A DNA stretch of 64,000 nucleotides from Pseudohalioglobus sediminis (GTDB lineage: Bacteria; Pseudomonadota; Gammaproteobacteria; Pseudomonadales; Halieaceae): positions 496,001 to 560,000 of the forward strand of contig NZ_VTUX01000001.1 of assembly GCF_008370495.1 (NCBI RefSeq), given 5' to 3'. Position numbers and translations under genes: made by a program. This document shows positions 3,051-14,755 of the stretch, piece by piece; positions within the stretch are counted from its first letter, which is position 1; every line of letters begins with the position of its first letter. Below the pieces are notes generated by a model. It did no database searches and was not told the DNA's origin. It saw nothing but the letters and a program-made list of their open reading frames with translations.

Positions 3051-4607
3051 TCACTCTTCCGGCTTGTCGTTGGCCCTGGCGCCGCCCTTGTACTCTTCCA
3101 TCAGGTGGCGCTTGTAGAGCTTGCCATTGTCGAGGCGCGGCAGCTTGGGATGAAAATCCAGGGCCTTGGGCAGCTTGATGTGGGAGATGCGTTCGCGCAA
3201 CCACTCCATGATCTCGATGGCGGTCTCGTCAGTGGCATCGGCCCAGTTCATGGGCTCCACCACGGCCTGCACTTTTTCACCGAATTCATCACAGGGCACC
3301 CCGAACACGGCGACATCGGCGATCTTGTCATGCCCCACCAGCACGTTTTCGATCTCCTGGGGATAAATGTTCACGCCGCCGGAAATAATCATGTAGTGCT
3401 TGCGATCGGTGAGGTAAAGATAACCCTCCTCGTCGACGTAGCCGACATCACCGGTCGTGGCCCAGCCGCGCTCGTTGTATGCACCCGCGGTTTTCTCTGA
3501 CTCTTTGTGGTATTCGAAGCGCGCCTGTTCGCCACTGAAATAGATTGTACCGGTCTCTCCGGGCGGCAACTCGTTGCCATCGTCATCGACGATATGTATC
3601 TCGCCGGCCAGCGCCCGGCCCACCGAGCCCTTGTGTTGCAGCCAGTCGTCCGAGTCGATAATGGTGGCGCCGATGCCCTCACTTGCAGCGTAATATTCCA
3701 CGATCACCGGCCCCCACCAGTCGATCATTTTTTCCTTCACCTCTATGGGGCATGGCGCCGCCGCATGGATAGCGAACTGCATGGAGCTGACGTCGTAGCG
3801 TTCGCGCACCTCCTGCGGCAGCTTCAACATGCGGATGAACATGATCGGCACCCATTGGCTGTGCGTGGCACGGTGTTCTTCTATCAGCGCCAGTGCGCGC
3901 TCGGGATCGAAACGCTCCATGATCACTGACGTGCCGCCCTGATACAGGTTCATCATGTTGTAGTGCAGCGGCGCGGCGTGATACAGCGGCGCCGGGGACA
4001 GGTACACCGTTTCCTCTGCAAACCCGAAGGCAACACCCAGGGTCATCGCCATCGGGTGGGGGGCATCCACGTCGTCGCTGGTGGGTGGTACGAACACGCC
4101 CTTGGGCTTGCCGGTGGTTCCCGAGGAGTACAGCATGGGCACGCCGTTGTTCTCGTCGGCAATACGCTCTGCCGGCTGTGCGTCCGTGGCCTCCTCCCAG
4201 GATTCATAACCGTCGATAATGCCGCCAACCATGTAGAAGTGACTGGCACCACTGGCCGCTTCGAGCATGTCCTGCGCCACTTCCGCCAGCTCATGCGAGC
4301 CGATGAAAAGCTGCGCGCCGCAATTATCAATGATGTAGGCGGTCTCTTCGCGCTTCAGGTGACTGGAGATCGGCGTATAGATGAGTCCTGCGCGCTGCGC
4401 TGCCCAGCAGATTTCCAGGAAGCGGGCATTGTTCTCCATCATCAGGGCGATATGGTCGCCAGCCTGTAAACCCAGCGAACGGAACAGCTGTGCACCCTGG
4501 TTGGAGCGCTCATCCAGTTGACGGTAGGTCACCATCTCCCCGGAGTCGCCCATGATAATGGCGGGTTTGTGCGGATAGGTTTCTGCTGTGTGGCGGGGAT
4601 GCGGCAT
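3051..4607 (-). CDS. Acyl-CoA synthetase (AMP-binding ligase)
   Basis: Cytoplasmic ATP-dependent ligase that activates a carboxylic acid to its CoA thioester through an acyl-AMP. 518 residues from ATG 4607, chosen because GGAG lies six to seven bases upstream; a TTG five codons earlier is in frame but overlaps that ribosome site. The P-loop SSGTTGKPKG is at about residues 161-170. The YYAASEG motif, the TTGDVGYVDEEGYLYLTDRK hinge and the GGVNIYPQEIE motif follow in order, and the C-terminal catalytic lysine is in LDNGKLYKRHL. Length and motif order fit medium/long-chain fatty-acyl-CoA synthetases. It lies 69 bp downstream of a tesB-type thioesterase on the same strand, suggesting a shared acyl-CoA operon. 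The exact substrate is unknown. Confidence 0.93.
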   Translation of the reverse strand: MPHPRHTAETYPHKPAIIMGDSGEMVTYRQLDERSNQGAQLFRSLGLQAGDHIALMMENNARFLEICWAAQRAGLIYTPISSHLKREETAYIIDNCGAQLFIGSHELAEVAQDMLEAASGASHFYMVGGIIDGYESWEEATDAQPAERIADENNGVPMLYSSGTTGKPKGVFVPPTSDDVDAPHPMAMTLGVAFGFAEETVYLSPAPLYHAAPLHYNMMNLYQGGTSVIMERFDPERALALIEEHRATHSQWVPIMFIRMLKLPQEVRERYDVSSMQFAIHAAAPCPIEVKEKMIDWWGPVIVEYYAASEGIGATIIDSDDWLQHKGSVGRALAGEIHIVDDDGNELPPGETGTIYFSGEQARFEYHKESEKTAGAYNERGWATTGDVGYVDEEGYLYLTDRKHYMIISGGVNIYPQEIENVLVGHDKIADVAVFGVPCDEFGEKVQAVVEPMNWADATDETAIEIMEWLRERISHIKLPKALDFHPKLPRLDNGKLYKRHLMEEYKGGARANDKPEE

Positions 4608-4676
4608 GATGCGCTCCTGCAAGGATAGTGGCTTATGCCTTCGACATTATAAGGTCTCCGGTAACAACGCAACTGC

Positions 4677-5516
4677 TCAGCGCGTGCGCATCAGACCCTG
4701 CTGCATCACCGTTGCCACGTGTACACCCTCGCGGGTGAAAAAGCGGCCACGAACCAGGGTTCGGCCACCGCTGTTGCGCTCGAGGTCAGCGGTGTGCAGC
4801 AGCCACTCATCGGCCCGGCAGGGCGCGTGAAACCAGATGGCATGATCCAGGCTCGCGATCTGCAGGCCGCCCTCCATCCAGGAGCGACCGTGTTGTATAA
4901 GCCCCGCGTCAAGTACCATGGTGTCGGACATGTAGGTCAGCAGGGACAGATGCAGGGCCGGGTCGTCGGCCACCGGGCCGGTGGTTTTCATCCAGTTGCA
5001 GAGTTCACCATCGGCCTGTTGCGGGTTGCGCCAGTCGATCGGGTGCACCATGCGCACATCCAGGTCCTCACCCGTGGTAATCATGAAGTCCTCGTCCAGG
5101 GTGCCGTCTTCAATGGCGCGCTGGCGTTCTGTGGGCAGTTCCTCCGGCGGCGTCACCGCGGGCAGGTCCGGCTGGTACTCGTAACCCTCTTCCGGGCGCT
5201 GGAATGACATCGAAGACACCAGGATCGGCCGCCCCTTCTGCAGGGCGACCACTCGCCGGGAGGTGAAACTGCCGCCGTCACGTGCGCGCTCGACCTCGTA
5301 GACAACCGGCTCGGCGCAGTCCCCGGGGCGCAGGAAATACGCGTGCTGGGAGTGCACCACGCGATCTTCGTCTACCGTCTTCTGTGCCGCACAGACGGCC
5401 TGTGCCAGCACCTGCCCACCATAGATGCGGAAACCGCGCGGGTGCATGTTGCGGCCGCGAAAGCGATCCTCGGCCAGTGTTTCCAGTGCCATTATGTCCA
5501 ATAACTGCTCGAGCAT
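4677..5516 (-). CDS. tesB: Acyl-CoA thioesterase II, TesB family
   Basis: Hydrolyses acyl-CoA to free acid and CoA. 279 residues, close to E. coli TesB (286), with two hot-dog domains. The N-terminal FRGRNMHPRGFRIYGGQVLAQAV and C-terminal SLDHAIWFHAPCRADEWLL blocks are typical. The aspartate of the LDH motif and the glutamine of VMQQGLMR match catalytic positions of TesB. The ATG at 5516 has a good AGAGGAAGC ribosome site. It is first in a two-gene unit with the acyl-CoA synthetase downstream, and divergent from the 5-oxoproline operon across a 101-bp gap that must hold both promoters. Confidence 0.92.
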   Translation of the reverse strand: MLEQLLDIMALETLAEDRFRGRNMHPRGFRIYGGQVLAQAVCAAQKTVDEDRVVHSQHAYFLRPGDCAEPVVYEVERARDGGSFTSRRVVALQKGRPILVSSMSFQRPEEGYEYQPDLPAVTPPEELPTERQRAIEDGTLDEDFMITTGEDLDVRMVHPIDWRNPQQADGELCNWMKTTGPVADDPALHLSLLTYMSDTMVLDAGLIQHGRSWMEGGLQIASLDHAIWFHAPCRADEWLLHTADLERNSGGRTLVRGRFFTREGVHVATVMQQGLMRTR

Positions 5517-5617
5517 GCTTCCTCTTCTGCTGTATCCCTGTCAGGCGAGCCGCCATTATCCAGAAAACCCATTCTGTGCCAAACTTAAGCGATCAATTTC
5601 TGCTATCAGGATAATCG

Positions 5618-6403
5618 ATGCGTCCAGACCTTACCCCCGCCGCCCTGCGCCGGGCAATCCGCAGCGGCGAGTTTACCGGCAACACCTCCGGCCTTGCTCC
5701 CGGTTACGTGCAGTGCAACCTCACCATCCTGCCGGCAGAATGGGCTGGCGATTTCCTGCGCTTCTGCCAGGCCAACCCCCGGCCCTGCCCGCTGCTGGCA
5801 GTGTCCGCAACAGCCGGCGACACAGCCTTACCACTTTTGGGGGATATTGACATACGCAGCGATGTGCCAAGCTATCGCGTCTTCCATGATGGTGTCTGCA
5901 GCGATGAAGTCACGGACATCACCGGGCTATGGCGTGAGGACCTGGTGACTTTTGCACTGGGCTGTTCATTTTCTTTTGAAGAAGCGCTGCTGGCCGATGG
6001 CCTGGAAGTGCGCAACGTCAGCGAGGGCGTCAATGTGCCCATGTACCGCACCGATATAGACTGTGCGGCGGCCGGCCCCTTCCACGGCAAGATGGTAGTC
6101 AGCATGCGACCCTTCAAGGCGCGGGATGCGATACGCGCGGTACAGATTTGTACGCGTTTTCCCCAGGTGCACGGGGCCCCGATACACCTGGGCGACCCGG
6201 CGCTGATCGGCATTGAGTCACTGGCGCGGCCTGACTACGGCGACGCCGTTACCGTGGCAAAGGATGAACTGCCCGTATTCTGGGCCTGCGGTGTCACGCC
6301 CCAGGTGGCCCTGGAGGCGGCGCGACCGCCCTTCGCCATAACCCATAGCCCGGGGCACATGCTGGTCTCGGATCTGCGTAACAGCCAACTGGCAATACTG
6401 TAA
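5618..6403 (+). CDS. DUF1445/YcsI-family putative hydro-lyase
   Basis: 261 residues. Recognised as the DUF1445 family (B. subtilis YcsI; also the N-terminal half of mammalian D-glutamate cyclase DGLUCY). Typical family blocks are [61 protein letters not shown] and [11 protein letters not shown]. The biochemical role of this domain is not established; the hydro-lyase label is a database name. ATG 5618 is preceded by AGGATAATCG. It is the first gene of the pxp operon, 18 bp ahead of pxpA, and the same linkage (ycsF-ycsI-kipI-kipA) is known in Bacillus. I infer a step in D-glutamate or 5-oxoproline metabolism. Confidence 0.9.
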
Positions 6404-6421
6404 CGGGCAGGTGATACACCG

Positions 6422-7156
6422 ATGTACTTGAACTGTGATCTGGGCGAAAGCTATGGCAGCTGGACCATGGGGCTGGATGCAGAGGTGATGCCGCATATCG
6501 ACCAGGCCAATGTGGCCTGTGGTTTTCACGGCGGCGACCCATTGACCATACAGCGCACCCTGGCACTGGCAGCGGTGCACGGTGTCAGCGTAGGCGCCCA
6601 CCCCGCCTACCCCGACCTGGTAGGCTTCGGCCGGCGCTCCATGCAACTCAGCGCCGATGAAATCATCGCCTGCCTGCAGTACCAGGTAGCCGCGCTCGAT
6701 GGCATGGCCGCCAGCGCCGGCATGACGCTGCACTACGTCAAGCCCCATGGCGCCCTCTACAACGACATGATGGCCAGTGCCGAGGTGCGCGGCGCCATCA
6801 TGCAGAGCATTGCCGCCTACCACCGACCTCTCAGTTTGATGCTGCAGGCCACACCGGAAGCCGACGCGCATCGCGAGGAGGCGGCGGCGCTGGGTCTGGA
6901 ACTCCTGTTCGAAGCCTTCGCCGACCGCTGTTATGACGACAACGGCCGCTTGCTGTCGCGGCGGCTGCCCGGCGCGGTACACAGCCGCGAGAAGATGCTG
7001 GCGCAGGTCGCGCAGCTGTGCGACCAGGGCAGCCTTACCACGGTAAGTGGCCATACACTGCCACTGGCTGCCGATACCCTGTGCGTGCACGGCGACAACC
7101 CCGAGGGCGTGCAGGCTATTCGCGAAATACGCGCGCTGGTTAAAGGCAGGGGCTAG
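6422..7156 (+). CDS. pxpA: 5-oxoprolinase subunit A (LamB/YcsF)
   Basis: Subunit A of the prokaryotic ATP-dependent 5-oxoprolinase PxpABC, which opens 5-oxo-L-proline to L-glutamate in the cytoplasm. 244 residues, the family's usual length. Signature blocks are LNCDLGESYG at the N-terminus, ANVACGFHGGDP near residue 40, VSVGAHPAYPDLVGFGRR and YVKPHGALYND. The stop codon overlaps the GTG start of pxpB by one base, so the two are probably translationally coupled. Confidence 0.96.
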   Translation: MYLNCDLGESYGSWTMGLDAEVMPHIDQANVACGFHGGDPLTIQRTLALAAVHGVSVGAHPAYPDLVGFGRRSMQLSADEIIACLQYQVAALDGMAASAGMTLHYVKPHGALYNDMMASAEVRGAIMQSIAAYHRPLSLMLQATPEADAHREEAAALGLELLFEAFADRCYDDNGRLLSRRLPGAVHSREKMLAQVAQLCDQGSLTTVSGHTLPLAADTLCVHGDNPEGVQAIREIRALVKGRG

Positions 7157-7833
7157 TGGAACTGCACAGCGCCGGCGAGAATGCCCTCATACTCTATCTT
7201 GGCGACACCGCCAGTGCCGAGGTATCCGCGCGCGTGCAGGCTGCCGCCCAGGCCGTAGAGCATGTGCTTGGCGCCGACCTGGTTGACCTCGTGCCCTCTT
7301 ACGCCTCGCTGCTGATCATCTACGACCCATTACGTACCGACCATCTTGCGGTAAGCCACAAGGTGCGCGAGTGCGTTGCCACCCTCGATGCCGTGGCGGC
7401 CGGTGAGGGCAAGCTGGTGGTACTGCCGGTTTACTATGACCCCGAGGCCGGCGCGGACCTGGCATCGCTGGCTGAGAACGCCGGGCTGGGTATTGAGCAG
7501 GTCATCGCGCTGCACAGTGATTGCGAATACCGGGTCTACGCGATTGGTTTCGCGCCCGGCTTCGCCTACCTGGGCGAGGTGGACGCGCGCATTGCCGCAC
7601 CGCGACTGGCCACCCCGAGACAAAAAGTGCCGCGCGGAGCGGTGGCTATTGCCGACAGACAGACCGCGGTTTATCCCGCCGTCTCCCCGGGGGGCTGGAA
7701 CCTGATCGGGCGCTGCCCTACCCGCATGTTCGACCCCAGTGCGGAGCCGACCATGCCGGTATCGGTAGGTGACCGGGTGCGCTTTGAACCGGTCAGTCGC
7801 GCGCGTTTTCTCGAGCTCGGGGGTGAGCTGTGA
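7156..7833 (+). CDS. pxpB: 5-oxoprolinase subunit B (KipI family)
   Basis: 225 residues, matching allophanate-hydrolase subunit-1-like KipI/PxpB. Seen are LPVYYDPEAGADL near residue 90, YRVYAIGFAPGFAYLG near 120, and RLATPRQKVPRGAVAIADRQ followed by VYPAVSPGGWNLIGRC. It partners PxpC in the ATP-dependent part of 5-oxoprolinase. The start is GTG 7156, overlapping the pxpA stop (TAGTG). The end overlaps the pxpC start by four bases (GTGA). Confidence 0.96.
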   Translation: MELHSAGENALILYLGDTASAEVSARVQAAAQAVEHVLGADLVDLVPSYASLLIIYDPLRTDHLAVSHKVRECVATLDAVAAGEGKLVVLPVYYDPEAGADLASLAENAGLGIEQVIALHSDCEYRVYAIGFAPGFAYLGEVDARIAAPRLATPRQKVPRGAVAIADRQTAVYPAVSPGGWNLIGRCPTRMFDPSAEPTMPVSVGDRVRFEPVSRARFLELGGEL

Positions 7834-8768
7834 GCCTGCGCGTCGAGCAGCCGGGCATCCTCGCGCTGCTGCAGGATGGTGGGCGTTTCGGGCAGCACCG
7901 CATCGGCCTGACCAACGGCGGCCCGCTGGACCCGCAGGCGTTTGACTACTGCAATCGCCTGTTACAGAACCCGCCCGGCTCGACTGCAGTGGAAATCAGC
8001 TTCGGCGGCGCGGAACTCACAGCCGAGACTGATACCTTCGTCTGCCTCACCGGTGCCGACATGGGACTGCGTATCAATGGCGAACCCGCCGAGCAATGGC
8101 GGGTGTTGCCTGTTCGCGCCGGCGACGTGCTGTCCATGGGCTTCGCAGAGAAAGGCAGCCGGGCTTACCTGGGCGTTGCCGAGGGCTTCAGCGTCGCGCC
8201 GCACTTCGGCAGCAGCGCCACCGTGATGCGTGAAGGCATAGGCGGATTACACGGTGACAAGCTCGGCGCGGGTGATTCACTGCCCTGCCCCACGGTACAC
8301 CAGCGCCACCTGCGCTATCTGCCCCGGGAGCAGCAACCGCACTACCACGATATCGTTACCGTGCGCGTCATTCCCGGCTACCAGCAGAAATTTTTCAGCC
8401 GCTACCAGCAGCGCCGGTTTTTCAGCCACGCCTACCACGTCAGCGCACGCTGTGACCGCATGGGCTATCGCCTGGAAGGGCCGGCGATAGAATGTGATAT
8501 CGACGGCATCCTCTCCGAGGGCATCTGCTTCGGGGCGATCCAGATTCCCGCGGACGGACAACCCATTGTGCTGCTCAATGATCGCCAGACCATTGGCGGC
8601 TACCCGAAAATCGGCGCCGCGCTGTCACTGGACTGCGGCCAGTTGGCCCAGTTGCGGCCGGGCGGGCGGGTACACTTTGCGCCCATTACACCGCACGCCG
8701 CGCATAACGCGCTGCACCTCGCGCACAGCCTGATGTGCAGACAAAGACTGCCGGAGTGGGCACCATGA
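7830..8768 (+). CDS. pxpC: 5-oxoprolinase subunit C (KipA family)
   Basis: 312 residues of the biotin-dependent carboxyltransferase-like KipA/PxpC family. Seen are LLQDGGRFGQHRIGLTNGGPLDPQAF near the N-terminus, the SRAYLGVAEGF block, and the C-terminal IVLLNDRQTIGGYPKIG motif. It completes the PxpABC heteromer. GTG start inside the pxpB stop; its own stop overlaps the ATG of the D-glutamate cyclase gene (ATGA at 8765-8768). Confidence 0.96.
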   Translation: MSLRVEQPGILALLQDGGRFGQHRIGLTNGGPLDPQAFDYCNRLLQNPPGSTAVEISFGGAELTAETDTFVCLTGADMGLRINGEPAEQWRVLPVRAGDVLSMGFAEKGSRAYLGVAEGFSVAPHFGSSATVMREGIGGLHGDKLGAGDSLPCPTVHQRHLRYLPREQQPHYHDIVTVRVIPGYQQKFFSRYQQRRFFSHAYHVSARCDRMGYRLEGPAIECDIDGILSEGICFGAIQIPADGQPIVLLNDRQTIGGYPKIGAALSLDCGQLAQLRPGGRVHFAPITPHAAHNALHLAHSLMCRQRLPEWAP

Positions 8769-9610
8769 CAGAACTGCAATTGAGCACAGCCATCGAACAG
8801 GTACTGGTGGCGCGCAACCCGCGACACATGCAGACCGCACGGGCAGCGCTGCAACCCGGTTATTACCTGCGTGCCGCGCAGCACCTGTTTCGCAATCGGG
8901 GCACCGTGCTGATTGGTACCGGCTTTCCTGTTAGCGAAACTTTCGAGACAGACGGGCCGGTGGGCGCCATCGCACTGTACAAGGCCATGGAGACACTGGG
9001 CGCAAAACCCGTCCTGGCCTGCGGTGCGCCACTGAGCCAGCACCTGCTCGAGGACTACCGCGTACTGCAACTGCAGGCTCGTGACCTTGCCGCCGCGGAG
9101 CGCGAGGCCAGCGACAAGCTCGCGCAACTGCAGCCGGCGGTGGTGGTGTCGATTGAACGCCCCGGCCTCAGCGCCGACGGGCGCTACTACAATATGCGTG
9201 GCGAGGACATCACCCCACGCAGTGCCTTTTTCGACCCGTATCTCCAGCAGGCACAGTGCCCCACCATCGCCATCGGCGACGGCGGCAACGAGATCGGCAT
9301 GGGCAACATTCGTGATGCCATCAGCGGCCTGGACATCACGCCTGCGGTTACCGGCTGTGACGAATTGCTGGTGGCAGACGTATCCAACTGGGGGGCCTAC
9401 GGCCTGATCGCGCTGCTCGGCCTGTGGGCGCAACGCGACCTGCTGGCGGAAGTGTCACCGCTGGCCATACTCGGCTATCTTTCAGCCCGGGGCAGCGTGG
9501 ACGGTGTCACCCGTGAAAACACACTGACAGAGGATGGACTCGACGCCGGACACGGCCAACAGGTCATCGAGGAACTGCGCCAGCTAACCGGTTTTGACAG
9601 CAGCGACTAG
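8765..9610 (+). CDS. D-glutamate cyclase (DUF4392)
   Basis: 281 residues. Recognised as the DUF4392 family, equivalent to the C-terminal domain of mammalian DGLUCY, which converts D-glutamate to 5-oxo-D-proline. Key blocks are LIGTGFPVSETFETDGPVGA, SIERPGLSADGRYYNMRG, AIGDGGNEIGMGNI and DELLVADVSNWGAYGL. The start at ATG 8765 overlaps the pxpC stop; a longer frame from 8735 would intrude further into pxpC and is not needed. In mammals this domain is fused behind a DUF1445 domain; here the two are separate genes flanking pxpABC, which supports a common pathway. Confidence 0.92.
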   Translation: MTELQLSTAIEQVLVARNPRHMQTARAALQPGYYLRAAQHLFRNRGTVLIGTGFPVSETFETDGPVGAIALYKAMETLGAKPVLACGAPLSQHLLEDYRVLQLQARDLAAAEREASDKLAQLQPAVVVSIERPGLSADGRYYNMRGEDITPRSAFFDPYLQQAQCPTIAIGDGGNEIGMGNIRDAISGLDITPAVTGCDELLVADVSNWGAYGLIALLGLWAQRDLLAEVSPLAILGYLSARGSVDGVTRENTLTEDGLDAGHGQQVIEELRQLTGFDSSD

Positions 9611-9677
9611 CGCGCAACATAAGCATTGGACAGCACCCGTAACCGGGTGTAGCAACGGAAAGGAAAGAGCAATCACT

Positions 9678-10535
9678 ATGAGCACGGTTTACCTGAACGG
9701 CGAGTACATGCCGATGGAAGCAGCCCGTATTTCGCCGATGGACCGCGGCTTCCTGTTCGGTGACGGCATCTACGAGGTTGTCCCGTCCTATGATGGCCAA
9801 CTCGTCGGTTTCGCACCGCACATGGCCAGAATGCAGGACGGCCTCGACGCGATCGAGATCAAGTTGCAAGTCGACCGGGACGCCTGGCGCGAGGTCGCAC
9901 GCGAACTCATCGCGCGCAACGGCGGCGGCAACCTGGGCATTTACTACCATGTCAGCCGCGGCGCAGATACCCGGCGTCATCACGCCTATCCCGAGGGGAT
10001 TACCCCGACGATGTATGCCTTCGCCTTCGAGATCCCGCCGGCGCCGCAGCCCGACAAGGCCGCGGCCACGCCCTACACCGTCTCCACGGCGGAGGACCTG
10101 CGCTGGAAGCGCTGCAATATCAAGTCCACCGCCCTGCTCGGCAACGTCATGCACTACCAGCATGGCCACTCCCGCGGGCACTCGGAAACCATTCTCTACA
10201 ACCAGCAGGGCGAGATCACCGAGGCCGCCGCCTGTAACGTGTTCGTGGTGCGCCATGGCATCGTCGCCACGCCGCTGCTGGACCACCAGAAGCTGCCCGG
10301 TATCACCCGCCTGATGCTGCTGGAGATACTGCGCCGCGATGGCAGCATCCCGGTGCAGGAGCGCGTGGTCACGCGCGATGAACTGCATAGCGCGGATGAA
10401 GTGTGGATTACCAGTTCCTCCAAGGAAATCGCACCGGTCATCGAGATCGACGGCAAGCCAGTGGGCGATGGCAGCATCGGGGACGTGTGGCTCGCAGCGC
10501 AAACCCTGTACAGCCGTCACAAGTTCGATTTCTGA
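9678..10535 (+). CDS. dat: D-amino acid aminotransferase (class IV)
   Basis: PLP-dependent fold-type IV transaminase exchanging amino groups between D-amino acids and 2-oxo acids, typically D-alanine + 2-oxoglutarate to pyruvate + D-glutamate. 285 residues. The N-terminal MSTVYLNGEYMPMEAARISP and PMDRGFLFGDGIYEVVP are typical, and the PLP lysine is in LRWKRCNIKSTALLGNV. The C-terminal EAAACNVFVV and LPGITRLMLLE blocks also fit. ATG 9678 is chosen for the AAGGAAAGAG ribosome site. The 67-bp gap to the previous gene holds a hairpin (CACCCG/CGGGTG, 9634-9649). The stop overlaps the alr start by one base. Preference for D-substrates over branched-chain L-substrates is inferred from motif and context. 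Confidence 0.9.
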   Translation: MSTVYLNGEYMPMEAARISPMDRGFLFGDGIYEVVPSYDGQLVGFAPHMARMQDGLDAIEIKLQVDRDAWREVARELIARNGGGNLGIYYHVSRGADTRRHHAYPEGITPTMYAFAFEIPPAPQPDKAAATPYTVSTAEDLRWKRCNIKSTALLGNVMHYQHGHSRGHSETILYNQQGEITEAAACNVFVVRHGIVATPLLDHQKLPGITRLMLLEILRRDGSIPVQERVVTRDELHSADEVWITSSSKEIAPVIEIDGKPVGDGSIGDVWLAAQTLYSRHKFDF

Positions 10536-11620
10536 TGAGTCGCGCAAACCAGGCCAGGCTGGACCTCGATGCCTTGCGCCACAACCTCGGCCTGGCGCGG
10601 CAACTGGCGCCCGGGTCACGCGTCATGTGCGTAGTCAAGGCCAACGCTTACGGCCATGGCGCGGTCACCATTGCCCGGGCACTGGACCCGCACACCGACG
10701 CGCTGGCGGTGGCCTGTATCGAGGAAGCGCTGGAGTTGCGCGAGGCCGGCGTCGTGTCCCCGATCCTCCTGCTGGAGGGGTGGTTCAGCGCAGACGAATT
10801 ACAGGTAGCTGCGGCCCAGAATCTCTGGGTGATGATAGACAACGAACGACAGATGCAGTGGCTGGAGCAGGCTTCGCTGTCGCAACCGGTGACCTGCTGG
10901 CTCAAGGTGGATACCGGCATGCACCGCCTGGGCGTGGCGCCGCAACAGGCGGCGACATTTCACCAGCGCCTGCTGGCCTGCCCGAATCGCCGGGGCGAGG
11001 TGGTTACCTGCACGCATTTTGCCTGCGCCGACGAGCCCGACAATCCCATGACCCGGCGGCAACTGGCACAGTTCGAGGCCGTGAGCGCCGGGCTGCAGGG
11101 ACCGCGCAGCGCGGCAAATTCTGCCGGTGTACTGGCCTGGCCGGATTCCTGTTACGACTGGATCAGGCCAGGCTACATGCTCTACGGCAACTCGCCGCTG
11201 GCGGCGCCACATCCCAATGCCGAGGCACTGCGCCCGGTGATGACGCTGGTATCGTCGGTTATCTCGGTGCGCGAAATCGAATGCGGTGAAACCGTGGGCT
11301 ACGGCGCGACCTGGACAGCGCAGCGCACGTCACGCATTGCCACGGTCAGCATAGGTTACGGTGATGGCTATCCGCGCCTGGCCGGCAACGGCACCCCGGT
11401 GCTGGTCAACGGGCAACGGGCGCCGCTCGCCGGGCGCGTGTCCATGGACATGATTACCGTTGACGTGACCGAGCTCGAGGGCGTGAACATCGGCGATGAG
11501 GTGGTGCTGTGGGGCCAGGGCCTCGCCGCCAGTGAAGTGGCCGCCTGTGCCGATACCATCGGCTATGAACTGACCACGAGAATGCCGGCGCGGACGCCGA
11601 GGGTGGTCCTGGCAAGCTGA
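10535..11620 (+). CDS. alr: Alanine racemase
   Basis: PLP-dependent fold-type III enzyme interconverting L- and D-alanine. 361 residues, the usual length. The PLP lysine is in CVVKANAYGHGAV near residue 35, and the catalytic tyrosine is in GETVGYGATWTA near residue 255. KVDTGMHRLG, IRPGYMLYGNSP and RVSMDMITVDVT also fit. ATG 10535 overlaps the dat stop (TGATG). Placement after dat suggests a catabolic DadX-like or D-amino-acid interconversion role rather than only cell-wall supply, but a housekeeping role cannot be excluded. Last gene of the operon; no clear terminator follows. Confidence 0.95.
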   Translation: MSRANQARLDLDALRHNLGLARQLAPGSRVMCVVKANAYGHGAVTIARALDPHTDALAVACIEEALELREAGVVSPILLLEGWFSADELQVAAAQNLWVMIDNERQMQWLEQASLSQPVTCWLKVDTGMHRLGVAPQQAATFHQRLLACPNRRGEVVTCTHFACADEPDNPMTRRQLAQFEAVSAGLQGPRSAANSAGVLAWPDSCYDWIRPGYMLYGNSPLAAPHPNAEALRPVMTLVSSVISVREIECGETVGYGATWTAQRTSRIATVSIGYGDGYPRLAGNGTPVLVNGQRAPLAGRVSMDMITVDVTELEGVNIGDEVVLWGQGLAASEVAACADTIGYELTTRMPARTPRVVLAS

Positions 11621-11652
11621 TTGCAGTCAGTCACAGGAACCCGGGTCCGCTG

Positions 11653-12054
11653 CTACTTCTCGAGAGATTTCAATGCCTCTGTGTCCACGCCTTTCATGGC
11701 GTCTTTGGCGATTTTCTTCGGATGCGGTTGGGCTTTATCCACCTCCTCGCCAACGCGGTAGCCAGAGTAGGCGCCGCCGGCGGCCTCACCCACGGCGGTC
11801 GCCTGTTGCTGGAGTTTTTTGCCCTCTGCCTCGCCGGCTAGCCAGCCATCACGGTACTCCGCGTCCGACTCGAAACGCTCGACATCCTTGATGTACTGCT
11901 CGAAGTCGTTACCTGCTTCCTGCATACCGCTGTGACGGCCATCGTGAAAGCCGATGATGTAGGCCTGGCTGCGACCCTGCTGCTGCAGACTCGAGTCAGT
12001 GGTACCGCAGGCGACAAGGCTGCAGAAAACAAGGCTCAAAAATAAAACACGCAT
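11653..12054 (-). CDS. Small predicted lipoprotein, unknown function
   Basis: 133 residues. Lipobox LVAC at residues 13-16 after a hydrophobic signal peptide, so the mature protein is probably a lipidated envelope protein. The rest is polar and charged, with a glycine-rich GEAAGGAYSGYRVGEE segment near residue 90 and a lysine-rich C-terminus. The ATG at 12054 has a strong GAGGAG ribosome site. It follows the DUF805 gene on the same strand after 55 bp. I do not recognise a family. Confidence 0.75.
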   Translation of the reverse strand: MRVLFLSLVFCSLVACGTTDSSLQQQGRSQAYIIGFHDGRHSGMQEAGNDFEQYIKDVERFESDAEYRDGWLAGEAEGKKLQQQATAVGEAAGGAYSGYRVGEEVDKAQPHPKKIAKDAMKGVDTEALKSLEK

Positions 12055-12109
12055 GATAATTTCTCCTCTACATGCAAGGCGCTGTATGGGTTCAGTCCGG
12101 CGTCAAGGA

Positions 12110-12502
12110 TCAGGCCGCAGCGGGCGCTGCGCCATAGGCGTTTTCACCCGCATCGCTGGGGCGGGTTAACCACCACAACAACACCAGCGCTCCGATAATG
12201 GGGATGATCTGGATGAGCAACCACCAACCGGAGCGACCCATGTCGTGAAGTCTTCGCGCGGCGACCGCCAGCGTCGGGATAAAAATGATCAGGGAAAACA
12301 GCCAGTTCAGCGGCTGCCCGGCTTCCTCTGCAAAGGGCTCGAAGCCCAGCAATGGGGCCACCAGTGCGCCCTCCACGATCGACAGCACAATACTGACCAG
12401 GACAAGGCCAAGGATCCAGTACCAATATTCCGAACGCGAGGCGCGACCCGCAAACACGGCATACTTTGAAATGACTGAGCGGACTGATTGAGTAAACGTC
12501 AT
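12110..12502 (-). CDS. DUF805 family membrane protein
   Basis: 130 residues from ATG 12502; the frame stays open upstream to 12604, but MTFTQSVRSVISKYAVFAGRASRSEYW is the typical DUF805 beginning. Three to four membrane segments, with the family blocks RASRSEYWYW, LAVAARRLHDMGRSGWW and GALVLLWWLTRPSDAGENAYG. Inner-membrane protein of unknown function. The downstream neighbour is a small lipoprotein on the same strand, possibly co-transcribed. Confidence 0.85.
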   Translation of the reverse strand: MTFTQSVRSVISKYAVFAGRASRSEYWYWILGLVLVSIVLSIVEGALVAPLLGFEPFAEEAGQPLNWLFSLIIFIPTLAVAARRLHDMGRSGWWLLIQIIPIIGALVLLWWLTRPSDAGENAYGAAPAAA

Positions 12503-12650
12503 GCGACGGGCATCCTGTAAAAAAGATGAGATAACGTTACGTGAGCTGCATTGCGCCGTCAATTGCAGGCACCATAGATCGGACAGCATGACCGCCAGCC
12601 CCACTCACCCTGAACCGCACTCACCCCTCCAGCCTTCCGGTCGCGCTGGT

Positions 12651-12678
12651 TTGCAGGCCCGCGCAAAGCTGTTTTAAT
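12651..12678 (+). promoter_or_regulatory. Putative sigma-70 promoter placing the start of transcription at the ATG
   Basis: TTGCAG (12651-12656), a 16-base spacer and TTTAAT (12673-12678). The ATG of the next gene is only eight bases past the -10, so the transcript would be leaderless or nearly so. Not tested. Confidence 0.4.
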
Positions 12679-12685
12679 TCCGGTC

Positions 12686-14755
12686 ATGACTTTGACACTC
12701 CCGCGCCTGGCCCGCGCCCTGCTCTGGCTTGTTGCAGCAATGCTGTTGAGCGCTGTAGCCGCTGCACTGTGGCTGCGCCACGAATTCGCCAGGGTGGCGA
12801 CAGACAGCGCTGACCCCGCGCGATGGCAGCAAGCGGCCACCGTGTCAGTTGCCACCAGGGACCTGCCGGCACCGGCGCCCTGCCGCAACCGCACAGAGTA
12901 TCCGGCGGCGTTTTTTGGCGCCCTGCATGTGCACACAGCCGCCTCCTATGACGCCACCGCCTTCGGCACCCTGGCCAGCGCCGATGATGCCTATCGCTTT
13001 GCTCGCGGCGAGCGCATGCCGCTGCGCCTGCGCGGCGACGCTGCCGGCTTCGAGCCGCCCGGCATAGGGCTGGACAGGCCGCTGGACTTCATGGCCGTCA
13101 CTGATCACGCCGAGTCACTGGGCGAGGTGCGCCTGTGTTACAGCGCAGACAGCGAGGCCTTCGGCAGTCTCGTGTGCCGGCTTTACCGCGGCGACGTGCG
13201 CGTGCCGGCGGCGGCGGACATGCAACCCATACTGCGGTTGGCAACGCTGGCGATATTCGGCCGCGATCGCTCGGCCGGGATATGCGGCGCAGACGGCAGC
13301 GGCTGCCGCGAGCAGGCGGCCCGCGTCTGGCGCGAGAACCAGCTCAGCACGGAGCGCTGGCAGGATCGCAGCGGCGACTGCCGCTTCACCACGCTGCACG
13401 CTTACGAGTACACGCTGGCAGAAGAGTCTTCCAACCTGCACCGCAATGTTATCTTCCGGTCAGCGGCCGTGCCGCAGGCAGCCGTTGGCGCGAAAGACGC
13501 AGCAACACCGGAAGACCTGTGGGCGTGGCTGAAGCAAACCTGTATCGATGGGGATCCCCGGTGTGATGTACTGGCAATTCCGCACAACAGCAACTGGAGT
13601 TCCGGCCGCATGTGGTACCCCTACAGCAATCGTGACCTGGACCCGGCAACGCGCCGGCAACAGGCCGAACTCAGGGCGGAACTGGAACCGCTGGCGGAAA
13701 TCATGCAAACCAAGGGCGATTCGGAATGCCGCAACGGCATTGCCAGCGTGATGGGCGCTGCCGACGAGTTCTGCGACTTCGAGAAGCTGCGCCCGGCAGC
13801 AGAGCAAATCGAGGACTGTGGCGAGGCAGTCGGCAGTGGCGGCATGCTGCTGAGCGGATGCACGTCACGCTACAACTTTGTGCGCTACGCGCTCGCAGCC
13901 GGCCTGAGGGAGCGCCGGGAGCTCGGCGTCAACCCGTTTGCCATGGGCATCATTGCCGCAACCGATACCCACAACGGCCTGCCTGCCGCTGAGGCTGAAG
14001 ACAACTATCTCGGCTCCCACGGCATTGATCGCAACGTACTCAGTCGCCTCCAGGGCAGCAGGGAAGTGCCCGGGGGTATCGGCAAGGGCTCCCCCGTGCG
14101 TTACAACCCGGGCGGACTGGCCGGCGTCTATGCACGTGAAAACAGCCGCAGCGCACTGTTCGATGCCATGCGCAGGCGGGAAACCTTCGGCATCAGTGGG
14201 CCCCGCATCACCCCGCGCCTGTTTGCCGGGTGGGATCAGCAGGCTCTCGATTGCGAGTCGCCGGATCTCATCGCCAGGGCCTACGCGCATGGCGTGCCCA
14301 TGGGCGCGCAGCTGCCACCGCCGCCAGCAGGCTCCGCGGCGCCGGTGTTCCTGGCCAGCGCCAGTCGTGACCCGGGCGCGGGCCTGTTGCAGCGTATCCA
14401 GGTCATCAAGTCCTGGGTGGACGCTGCCGGGCGCACCCACCAGGCGGTCTACGATGTGGCCGGAGATACCGGCAACGGCGCCAGCGTCGATCGCGATACC
14501 TGCGCCGTCAGTGGCAGCGGCTATAACCAACTCTGCGCCAGCTGGCAGGATCCCGATTTCGATCCGGCACAAGACGCGGTGTACTATGCCCGCGTGCTGG
14601 AAAACCCCAGCTGCCGCTGGAGCCGCTGGGACTGTATTCGCCTTGCCGAGGCGGAGCGCCCGCCCAGCTGCACAGACCCGGGGCTGCCGTGGCAGATACA
14701 GGAGCGCGCCTGGACCTCGCCGGTGTGGTACTACGCTGACCAGGGTGAAGGTTAG
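12686..14755 (+). CDS. DUF3604 domain protein (PHP-like metallohydrolase fold)
   Basis: 689 residues. An N-terminal membrane anchor or signal (residues 8-30) is followed by a long DUF3604 region. Metal-ligand-like motifs of PHP type are visible: ALHVHTAASYDA near residue 78, MAVTDHAESLG near 137, LAIPHNSNWSSG near 298 and IAATDTHNGLP near 425. The protein carries many cysteines, consistent with an exported location. DUF3604 proteins are common in marine gammaproteobacteria, but no reaction is established. There is no evident ribosome site, in line with the promoter just upstream. Confidence 0.85.
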   Translation: MTLTLPRLARALLWLVAAMLLSAVAAALWLRHEFARVATDSADPARWQQAATVSVATRDLPAPAPCRNRTEYPAAFFGALHVHTAASYDATAFGTLASADDAYRFARGERMPLRLRGDAAGFEPPGIGLDRPLDFMAVTDHAESLGEVRLCYSADSEAFGSLVCRLYRGDVRVPAAADMQPILRLATLAIFGRDRSAGICGADGSGCREQAARVWRENQLSTERWQDRSGDCRFTTLHAYEYTLAEESSNLHRNVIFRSAAVPQAAVGAKDAATPEDLWAWLKQTCIDGDPRCDVLAIPHNSNWSSGRMWYPYSNRDLDPATRRQQAELRAELEPLAEIMQTKGDSECRNGIASVMGAADEFCDFEKLRPAAEQIEDCGEAVGSGGMLLSGCTSRYNFVRYALAAGLRERRELGVNPFAMGIIAATDTHNGLPAAEAEDNYLGSHGIDRNVLSRLQGSREVPGGIGKGSPVRYNPGGLAGVYARENSRSALFDAMRRRETFGISGPRITPRLFAGWDQQALDCESPDLIARAYAHGVPMGAQLPPPPAGSAAPVFLASASRDPGAGLLQRIQVIKSWVDAAGRTHQAVYDVAGDTGNGASVDRDTCAVSGSGYNQLCASWQDPDFDPAQDAVYYARVLENPSCRWSRWDCIRLAEAERPPSCTDPGLPWQIQERAWTSPVWYYADQGEG

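Follow-up and report, generated by a model that had tools for sequence, protein, structure and literature searches.

A seven-gene run in Pseudohalioglobus sediminis with a possible role in D-glutamate supply and the return of D-glutamate to L-glutamate

We analyzed a stretch of 64,000 nucleotides (nt) from the genome of Pseudohalioglobus sediminis (assembly GCF_008370495.1, contig NZ_VTUX01000001.1, positions 496,001 to 560,000), here called the window, which carries seven plus-strand genes at positions 5618–11620 in the order DUF1445, pxpA, pxpB, pxpC, DUF4392, dat and alr. On balance, and with reservations, we favor the interpretation that this operon joins the supply of D-glutamate and D-alanine with a one-way return of D-glutamate to L-glutamate, in a bacterium whose genome has no match to MurI. 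We infer that the flux runs in the D-to-L direction. The order of the genes and their identities were established from the sequence and its list of open reading frames, and the profiles of Pfam and NCBIfam confirmed the assignment that a previous sequence-only reading had made. All seven products score above the Pfam gathering scores (in gene order: PF07286, 219 bits; PF03746, 296; PF02682, 235; PF02626, 286; PF14336, 223; PF01063, 172; PF01168/PF00842, 239/156). The successive junctions are a gap of 18 nt, overlaps of 1, 4 and 4 nt, a gap of 67 nt and an overlap of 1 nt, which agrees with the overlaps at four of six junctions that had been claimed. The three 5-oxoprolinase subunit genes are adjacent and each product exceeds its family cut-off (NF003816, TIGR00370 and TIGR00724), as expected for PxpABC, and PxpC reaches 212.4 of the 500 bits set by the narrower equivalog NF045499. 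Taken as a whole, the sequence-only reading is supported in part: its chemistry is plausible, but it missed the cell-wall setting without MurI and the single alr gene.

The arrangement is shared by related bacteria. With the DUF4392 protein of the window as query, 80 named loci were retrieved, the top 80 of 266 confirmed relatives, and scored with the seven window proteins. They belong to Halieaceae and other, mostly marine, Gammaproteobacteria, and are kin (58–77% identity) because they were picked by similarity. The nearest are mostly Halieaceae (Halioglobus, Seongchinamella, HTCC2148), the best four at 74–77% identity. Of the 71 loci that extend 3300 nt or more upstream, 70 have the five genes from DUF1445 through DUF4392 in the same order, and dat lies downstream of DUF4392 in 76 of the 78 loci with at least 950 nt downstream, the exceptions being L094 and L097. 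Where 4600 nt of downstream sequence were available (69 loci), alr was found in 48, and the complete seven-gene order is present in 42 of the 63 loci that are long enough on both sides. This order is old and conserved beyond chance.

Cell-wall supply in a genome without a MurI match

The host genome is estimated to be 100% complete, and a profile search of it returned no match to MurI. MurI exceeded its cut-off in none of the 37 searched genomes of the host family, the host included; four of them show weak matches below the cut-off. The alr product of the window scores 387.6 bits with TIGR00492 (cut-off 168). Since the host has no MurI match and a single alr gene, dat and alr most likely constitute its cell-wall supply of D-glutamate and D-alanine, and are most likely essential. 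The replacement of MurI by a D-amino acid aminotransferase is a known alternative in general, according to the available text of PMC8788868 and PMC5885031. Dat and Alr are the source of D-glutamate in such systems, as they would be here; the window differs from them in that dat and alr lie in one tight run with a putative 5-oxoproline return path.

A comparison of the host and 57 relatives reveals that Dat (E < 1e-50) and MurI (over its cut-off) nearly exclude one another. Dat only is found in 42 genomes, MurI only in 13, both in two (G239 and G244) and neither in one (G213, which is 88% complete), so that Dat is present in 44 of the 58. The corresponding Fisher values are 4e-10 and, with one entry per family, 2e-4; independence cannot be assumed for these genomes, and a single family supplies 37 of the 58.

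The Dat protein remains below the cut-offs of TIGR01121 (217.3 of 277.45 bits) and NF005209 (235.9 of 320), which are still its two best-scoring families, and the nearest solved structures are those of D-amino acid aminotransferases. Of three further class IV aminotransferases in the host, the two listed share 24 and 28% identity with Dat. Residues K149, Y32, R100 and H102 are invariant in all 103 rows of the dat alignment (107 found, 102 kept after short pieces were dropped, plus the window). The rows compiled for dat, DUF1445 and DUF4392 re-include the window's own genome, and other genomes may occur twice. We take Y32, R100 and H102 to correspond to the Tyr and Arg-x-His carboxylate trap of Bacillus Dat. 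The assignment of R100 and H102 is based on conservation, because a pairwise alignment with a solved structure instead places the neighboring and variable R99 and H101 on the trap. In another genome of the same genus, also with no MurI match (G205, C1:3387585–3388438), dat is present as two overlapping pieces, one with an internal TGA codon, for which a sequencing error is likely; a genuine break would be of consequence.

DUF4392 and DUF1445 in the operon and elsewhere

DUF4392 was found together with Dat in all 38 of the genomes that contain it among the host and its 57 relatives. A strict two-way link was rejected, as six of the 44 Dat genomes have no DUF4392. The family is rare outside this group (one of 203 class genomes, namely the host, and 10 of 398 phylum genomes), and no match was found in phages. 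The absence of MurI as a peculiarity of DUF4392 genomes was also rejected, since only 64 of the 203 class genomes have MurI over the cut-off. DUF4392 tracks Dat, and not the absence of MurI as such.

The window DUF4392 protein scores 223.3 bits with its profile (cut-off 27.9). The evidence for a cyclase activity comes from the recombinant mouse protein 9030617O03Rik/DGLUCY, a two-domain protein that converts D-glutamate to 5-oxo-D-proline according to the available text of PMC5339696. This report supports the link between D-glutamate and 5-oxoproline that the sequence-only reading had drawn, and the fusion of DUF1445 and DUF4392 in mammalian DGLUCY (C14orf159), also part of that reading, is borne out by the sources as far as available. 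In the window the same two domains are encoded by separate genes that flank pxpABC, with dat and alr, whereas DGLUCY is reported to end at 5-oxo-D-proline. By analogy, DUF4392 alone would be the cyclase half of DGLUCY. The Thermococcus protein TON_0340 (5GKX, 4DWZ and 5GL4), an archaeal member of the family, has been described as a Mn-dependent phosphatase whose physiological substrate its authors leave open, in the available text of PMC5132392. Its metal-binding acids, given there as Glu59, Asp61, Glu115, Asp157, Glu161 and Asp246, align in this order to the six metal-site acids of the window protein (Table 1), and all six are invariant in 111 of 111 DUF4392 rows (the window and all 110 found) and also present in eight divergent copies.

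A D-glutamate maker of another kind also has DUF4392 as a neighbor. Two of the ten phylum genomes with DUF4392 (G338 and G387) have no DUF1445 match, and in both of them DUF4392 lies beside a murL homologue; the two homologues score 434 and 267 bits with NF041275, below its Xanthomonadales cut-off of 700. The gene is located 13 nt upstream of a murL homologue in L199 (8122–10441), and belongs in L200 (8254–13211) to a run of murL, a murD-type ligase gene (TIGR01087, 294 bits; cut-off 212), a gene for a protein of 415 amino acids, DUF4392 and a methyltransferase gene; the 415-residue protein matches no Pfam or NCBIfam family. Relatives of MurL were found in 4 plasmid records, a search by sequence returned no solved MurL-like structure, and no link between DUF4392 and MurL was found in the open-access literature. 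The MurD2/MurL pathway of Xanthomonas, in which MurL is an ATP-dependent epimerase, is likewise a MurI-independent source of D-glutamate; unlike it, the operon has no murL among its genes. DUF4392 accompanies makers of D-glutamate of two unrelated kinds, Dat and MurL, and the simplest reading is an outlet for D-glutamate where it cannot be racemized back. The family, a phosphatase according to one group and a D-glutamate cyclase according to another, gains a setting here, namely the handling of D-glutamate in cells that build their walls without MurI.

Another use of the family is also apparent. Two rhizobial plasmids (L119, 6827–10265; L120, 6779–10358) carry two DUF4392 genes close together, at about 30% identity to the window protein and with different neighbors, namely genes for an aldehyde dehydrogenase, an oxidoreductase and an amino acid ABC (ATP-binding cassette) transporter. 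Next to a DUF1445 gene, L181 has an open frame of 3573 residues (3180–13901) that contains a DUF4781 stretch besides two DUF4392 domains; judged by eye, the frame is rich in alanine and its start coiled-coil-like, and it looks like a giant multidomain protein.

The DUF1445 protein of the window scores 219.4 bits with PF07286 (cut-off 25) and 403.7 bits with NF003969 (cut-off 324). The sequence-only reading held that this family has no proven reaction. No assayed reaction was found in the open-access literature, but the databases now carry function names, and names only: 'D-glutamate cyclase' in Pfam and 'putative hydro-lyase' in NCBIfam. Two crystal structures, 2pif and 3db9, were released in 2007 and 2008. 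An alignment of 47 rows drawn from a range of genomes and plasmids, in which one gene occurs twice (L002 and L206) and 46 are distinct, shows Cys116, Cys224 and His243 each present in 45 rows; the three residues are lost together in L122 and L188, where both cysteines are replaced by serine. Asn34 and Arg164 are present in all 47 rows, and Cys57 is missing in two other rows. A separate DUF1445 set comprised 74 rows kept of 76 found, after short pieces were dropped, plus the window. Both Cys116 and Cys224 are present in the alignments to 2pif and 3db9. These two proteins (L122, 7001–7765, beside pxpA; L188, 7662–8549) are possibly inactive or re-purposed paralogues, to judge from these substitutions. 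The joint loss would fit a cofactor-free racemase with two thiols, and would equally fit a Cys2His metal site.

A structural model of the protein (pLDDT 89.9) places Cys116 and Cys224 at strand-to-helix junctions (E109–115/H119 and E217–223/H227). A Foldseek search with the model at E ≤ 0.001 retrieved only the DUF1445 structures 2pif and 3db9 and the NrpR-like MJ0159 (E 2e-5, TM 0.35–0.46). Four DUF1445 proteins searched against the whole of Pfam with a permissive limit matched their own family only, apart from two chance-level matches for one relative. The best alignment of one half of the protein to the other pairs Cys116 with Cys224, at a score that lies within the permuted controls.

The sequence-only reading had asked whether DUF1445, DUF4392 and pxpABC co-occur with dat and alr. 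In 42 of 63 related loci all seven genes stand in order, as given above, and across 398 phylum genomes DUF1445 is present in 64, DUF4392 in 10 and both in eight, so that DUF1445 accompanies DUF4392 in eight of ten genomes (Fisher 1e-5, uncorrected for kinship). We inspected 36 DUF1445 neighborhoods, 35 of them picked for spread from 67 matches, and one further. The pxp genes were detected by tblastn, which divergent ones may escape, in 14, two of which have DUF4392 (L179 and L180), and in L182 and L183 DUF4392 adjoins DUF1445 while pxp genes were not found by the same search. Plasmids of Lactiplantibacillus, Kluyvera and Azospirillum have DUF1445 beside pxp genes and no DUF4392 in the stretch, an arrangement seen in two phyla, Bacillota and Pseudomonadota, that places DUF1445 at 5-oxoproline and not at D-glutamate itself. 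Its other neighbors include binding proteins of TRAP (tripartite ATP-independent periplasmic) transporters, LysR regulators and M20 peptidases, among 20 neighbor proteins scanned for families. In an Agrobacterium plasmid (L126, 1899–8796) the gene run comprises GntR, ABC transporter, dihydropyrimidinase, short-chain dehydrogenase/reductase (SDR), DUF1445 and heme-binding protein, a single SDR gene separating dihydropyrimidinase from DUF1445. Directly upstream of DUF1445-DUF4392 in L182 lies a gene (6865–7752) for a pyridoxal phosphate enzyme resembling D-cysteine desulfhydrase (TIGR01275, at a score under the cut-off). DUF1445 is not tied to D-glutamate in general, being often found without DUF4392 and with or without pxp genes beside it, and these neighbors are more in keeping with an enzyme acting on cyclic or N-acyl amino acids than with one dedicated to D-glutamate. 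The available text of PMC5132392 places the family in fungi and vertebrates as well.

The PxpABC operons of Bacillus subtilis, whose order we take to be pxpA-ycsG-ycsI-pxpB-pxpC with ycsI as the DUF1445 gene, and of Corynebacterium glutamicum (pxpTABC) share pxpABC with the window, and differ from it in including a transporter gene, of which the operon has none. PF07286 matches in the B. subtilis genome, and ycsI lies in the pxp operon downstream of ycsG in the available text of PMC10448178. PF14336, the DUF4392 family, has no match in 14 control genomes; B. subtilis is named in the control set of the PF07286 search.

Candidate route from D- to L-glutamate and its alternatives

PxpABC acts on 5-oxo-L-proline according to PMC13274462, in the available text of which no mention of 'D-proline' or 'D-glutamate' was found. 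If the product of DUF4392 is 5-oxo-D-proline, an inversion is needed to reach L-glutamate, and DUF1445, the only gene of the operon without an assigned role, is the best candidate for it. In the proposed route, Alr would convert L-alanine to D-alanine, and Dat would move the amino group of D-alanine to 2-oxoglutarate to provide D-glutamate for MurD. Surplus or recycled D-glutamate would leave through DUF4392, acting as a two-metal enzyme, as 5-oxo-D-proline, which DUF1445 would invert to 5-oxo-L-proline with Cys116 and Cys224 as an acid-base pair helped by His243, and PxpABC would then yield L-glutamate with ATP. Because this last step uses ATP, the outlet would be one-way, and it would take the place of the reverse reaction that the missing MurI would catalyze. 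That DUF1445 is a 5-oxoproline racemase, with Cys116, Cys224 and His243 as candidate catalytic residues, seems to us a real possibility, if short of probable. The wider idea, that it is a cofactor-free racemase of a fold new among racemases and forms with DUF4392 and PxpABC an ATP-driven pathway replacing reverse MurI, is put forward more tentatively; it would apply to bacteria with a D-glutamate source other than MurI, which is Dat here, and to some MurL bacteria that have DUF4392 alone. Such a new-fold racemase is a sharp proposal, as the pattern ties the function of DUF1445 to one particular substrate and a specific pair of cysteines and is directly testable.

A number of observations weigh against this route. 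The strongest is the mammalian result: the product of mouse DGLUCY, which has both domains, is reported as 5-oxo-D-proline, with D and L standards listed in the legend, and humans excrete 5-oxo-D-proline and much less of the L form, in the available text of PMC5339696. Either the DUF1445 domain lost its activity there, or DUF1445 does something else, which raises the questions of what role the DUF1445 half of DGLUCY plays and whether its cysteines have been preserved. The suggestion of the sequence-only reading that DUF1445 inverts 5-oxoproline thus stands as the best candidate, in view of the jointly lost Cys/Cys/His set, and is opposed by the mammalian product and excretion and by the lack of a known racemase fold. 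Kinship with known racemase folds was looked for and not found, as no DapF, proline racemase or MurI appears in the best 50 of 352 Foldseek rows, and an internal duplication of the two halves was not detected (score 13.3, against up to 18.8 in 30 permuted controls). The locus L056 has no DUF1445 in the cluster, where the other six genes are retained, and in two of the eight phylum genomes that have both families (G324 and G416) DUF4392 lies at a distance from DUF1445 or on a different contig. Because MurI is over its cut-off in only 64 of the 203 class genomes and DUF4392 in one, the absence of MurI does not by itself demand DUF4392; MurI is over the cut-off in seven of the 30 DUF4392 genomes reached through the named loci for which its status was determined, of 80 loci in all. 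The murL stretches of Xanthomonas sacchari (9 kb; murL-murD) and Pseudonocardia alni show no annotated DUF4392, in gene tables that are incomplete. Dat is also reversible, so that D-glutamate could return through D-alanine without a separate outlet, and the 67-nt gap before dat leaves room for separate transcription.

That gap is also the starting point for a reading that we think unlikely, in which two modules share only a neighborhood: dat-alr would serve the cell wall, and DUF1445-pxpABC-DUF4392 the repair or use of 5-oxoproline as a damage product or food, with no route from D to L. It is consistent with the LysR-type gene found at this position in the eight long-gap loci opened, with alr lying nearby in only 48 of 69 loci, and with the TRAP transporter gene upstream of the cluster in Marinomonas and the TRAP binding-protein or LysR genes near DUF1445 elsewhere. 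The constant company of DUF4392 and Dat (38 of 38 genomes), its position beside murL elsewhere and the presence of dat downstream in 76 of 78 loci argue against it. The suggestion that PxpABC of this lineage takes 5-oxo-D-proline, returning D-glutamate, or takes both forms, while DUF1445 is a chaperone, a channelling partner or a sensor of a glutamate-like ligand, appears quite improbable. The resemblance to the NrpR-like MJ0159 is in its favor, NrpR being a sensor of 2-oxoglutarate, as is the retention of the other six genes in L056; the conserved Cys/His set, with Arg164 and Asn34, looks catalytic, and a cycle from D-glutamate through 5-oxo-D-proline back to D-glutamate would merely burn ATP.

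The remaining alternative, which we hold to be a minor though serious contender, takes DUF1445 for a metal-dependent hydro-lyase or lactam enzyme with zinc on Cys116, Cys224 and His243, forming or opening 5-oxoproline alone or with DUF4392. Zinc sites of Cys and His occur in beta-carbonic anhydrase and cytidine deaminase, and a Cys2His set lost as a unit is as compatible with a metal site as with an acid-base pair. The Pfam and NCBIfam names point the same way, D-glutamate cyclase (EC 4.2.1.48) being a hydro-lyase, as does the dihydropyrimidinase gene near DUF1445 in the Agrobacterium plasmid; the mouse activity, in the text available, was shown with a protein carrying both domains. On the other hand, DUF4392 has a conserved metal site of its own and occurs beside murL without DUF1445, so that a D-glutamate cyclase would be doubled in the operon, and a lactam hydrolase independent of ATP would be redundant beside the ATP-driven PxpABC.

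Features of the locus and related loci

The features of the operon are collected in Table 1. Upstream of it lies a divergent gene for a tesB-type thioesterase (4677–5516, minus strand), and downstream a minus-strand gene (11653–12054) for a protein of 133 amino acids that has no Pfam match and, by eye, a lipoprotein-like signal at its start. No RNA element reached its gathering threshold in the window, and a scan of 5400–11800 for promoters and terminators gave counts no higher than in shuffled sequence.

Table 1. Genes and intergenic gap of the seven-gene run (window coordinates)
Feature	Position	Strand	Evidence or remark
DUF1445 (PF07286/NF003969, 'putative hydro-lyase')	5618–6403	+	Pfam and NCBIfam profiles; structures 2pif and 3db9; residue conservation
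pxpA, 5-oxoprolinase subunit A (LamB/YcsF)	6422–7156	+	NF003816, 333.6 bits (cut-off 213)
pxpB, 5-oxoprolinase subunit B, GTG start	7156–7833	+	1-nt overlap with pxpA; TIGR00370, 164.2 bits (cut-off 145.55)
pxpC, 5-oxoprolinase subunit C, GTG start	7830–8768	+	4-nt overlap with pxpB; TIGR00724, 249.7 bits (cut-off 230.2)
DUF4392, D-glutamate cyclase-like (C-terminal half of DGLUCY)	8765–9610	+	metal-site acids E61, D63, E131, D172, E176, D257
gap between DUF4392 and dat	9611–9677	+	67 nt; LysR-family regulator gene here in several related genera
dat, D-amino acid aminotransferase (fold IV)	9678–10535	+	pyridoxal phosphate lysine K149
alr, alanine racemase	10535–11620	+	only TIGR00492 match in the host genome

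The gap before dat is at least 900 nt long in 14 of 76 loci. Each of the eight long-gap loci that were opened has a LysR-type gene within the insert, recognized by eye in L112 and L113 and confirmed by Pfam in the other six. In L056, DUF1445 is missing between tesB and pxpA (around 7410–7640), which makes this locus a natural test of the need for DUF1445. The Marinomonas locus with the upstream TRAP transporter gene is L079. A gene for a glycosidase of glycoside hydrolase family 3 (GH3) is found directly upstream of DUF1445 in L118 from Pseudoalteromonas (4612–6420) and in L180 from a genome of the class (10019–11872). The L180 protein is NagZ-like by NF003740, with 202.7 bits, just below the 207 of the cut-off, and the position of these GH3 genes may hint at peptidoglycan recycling.

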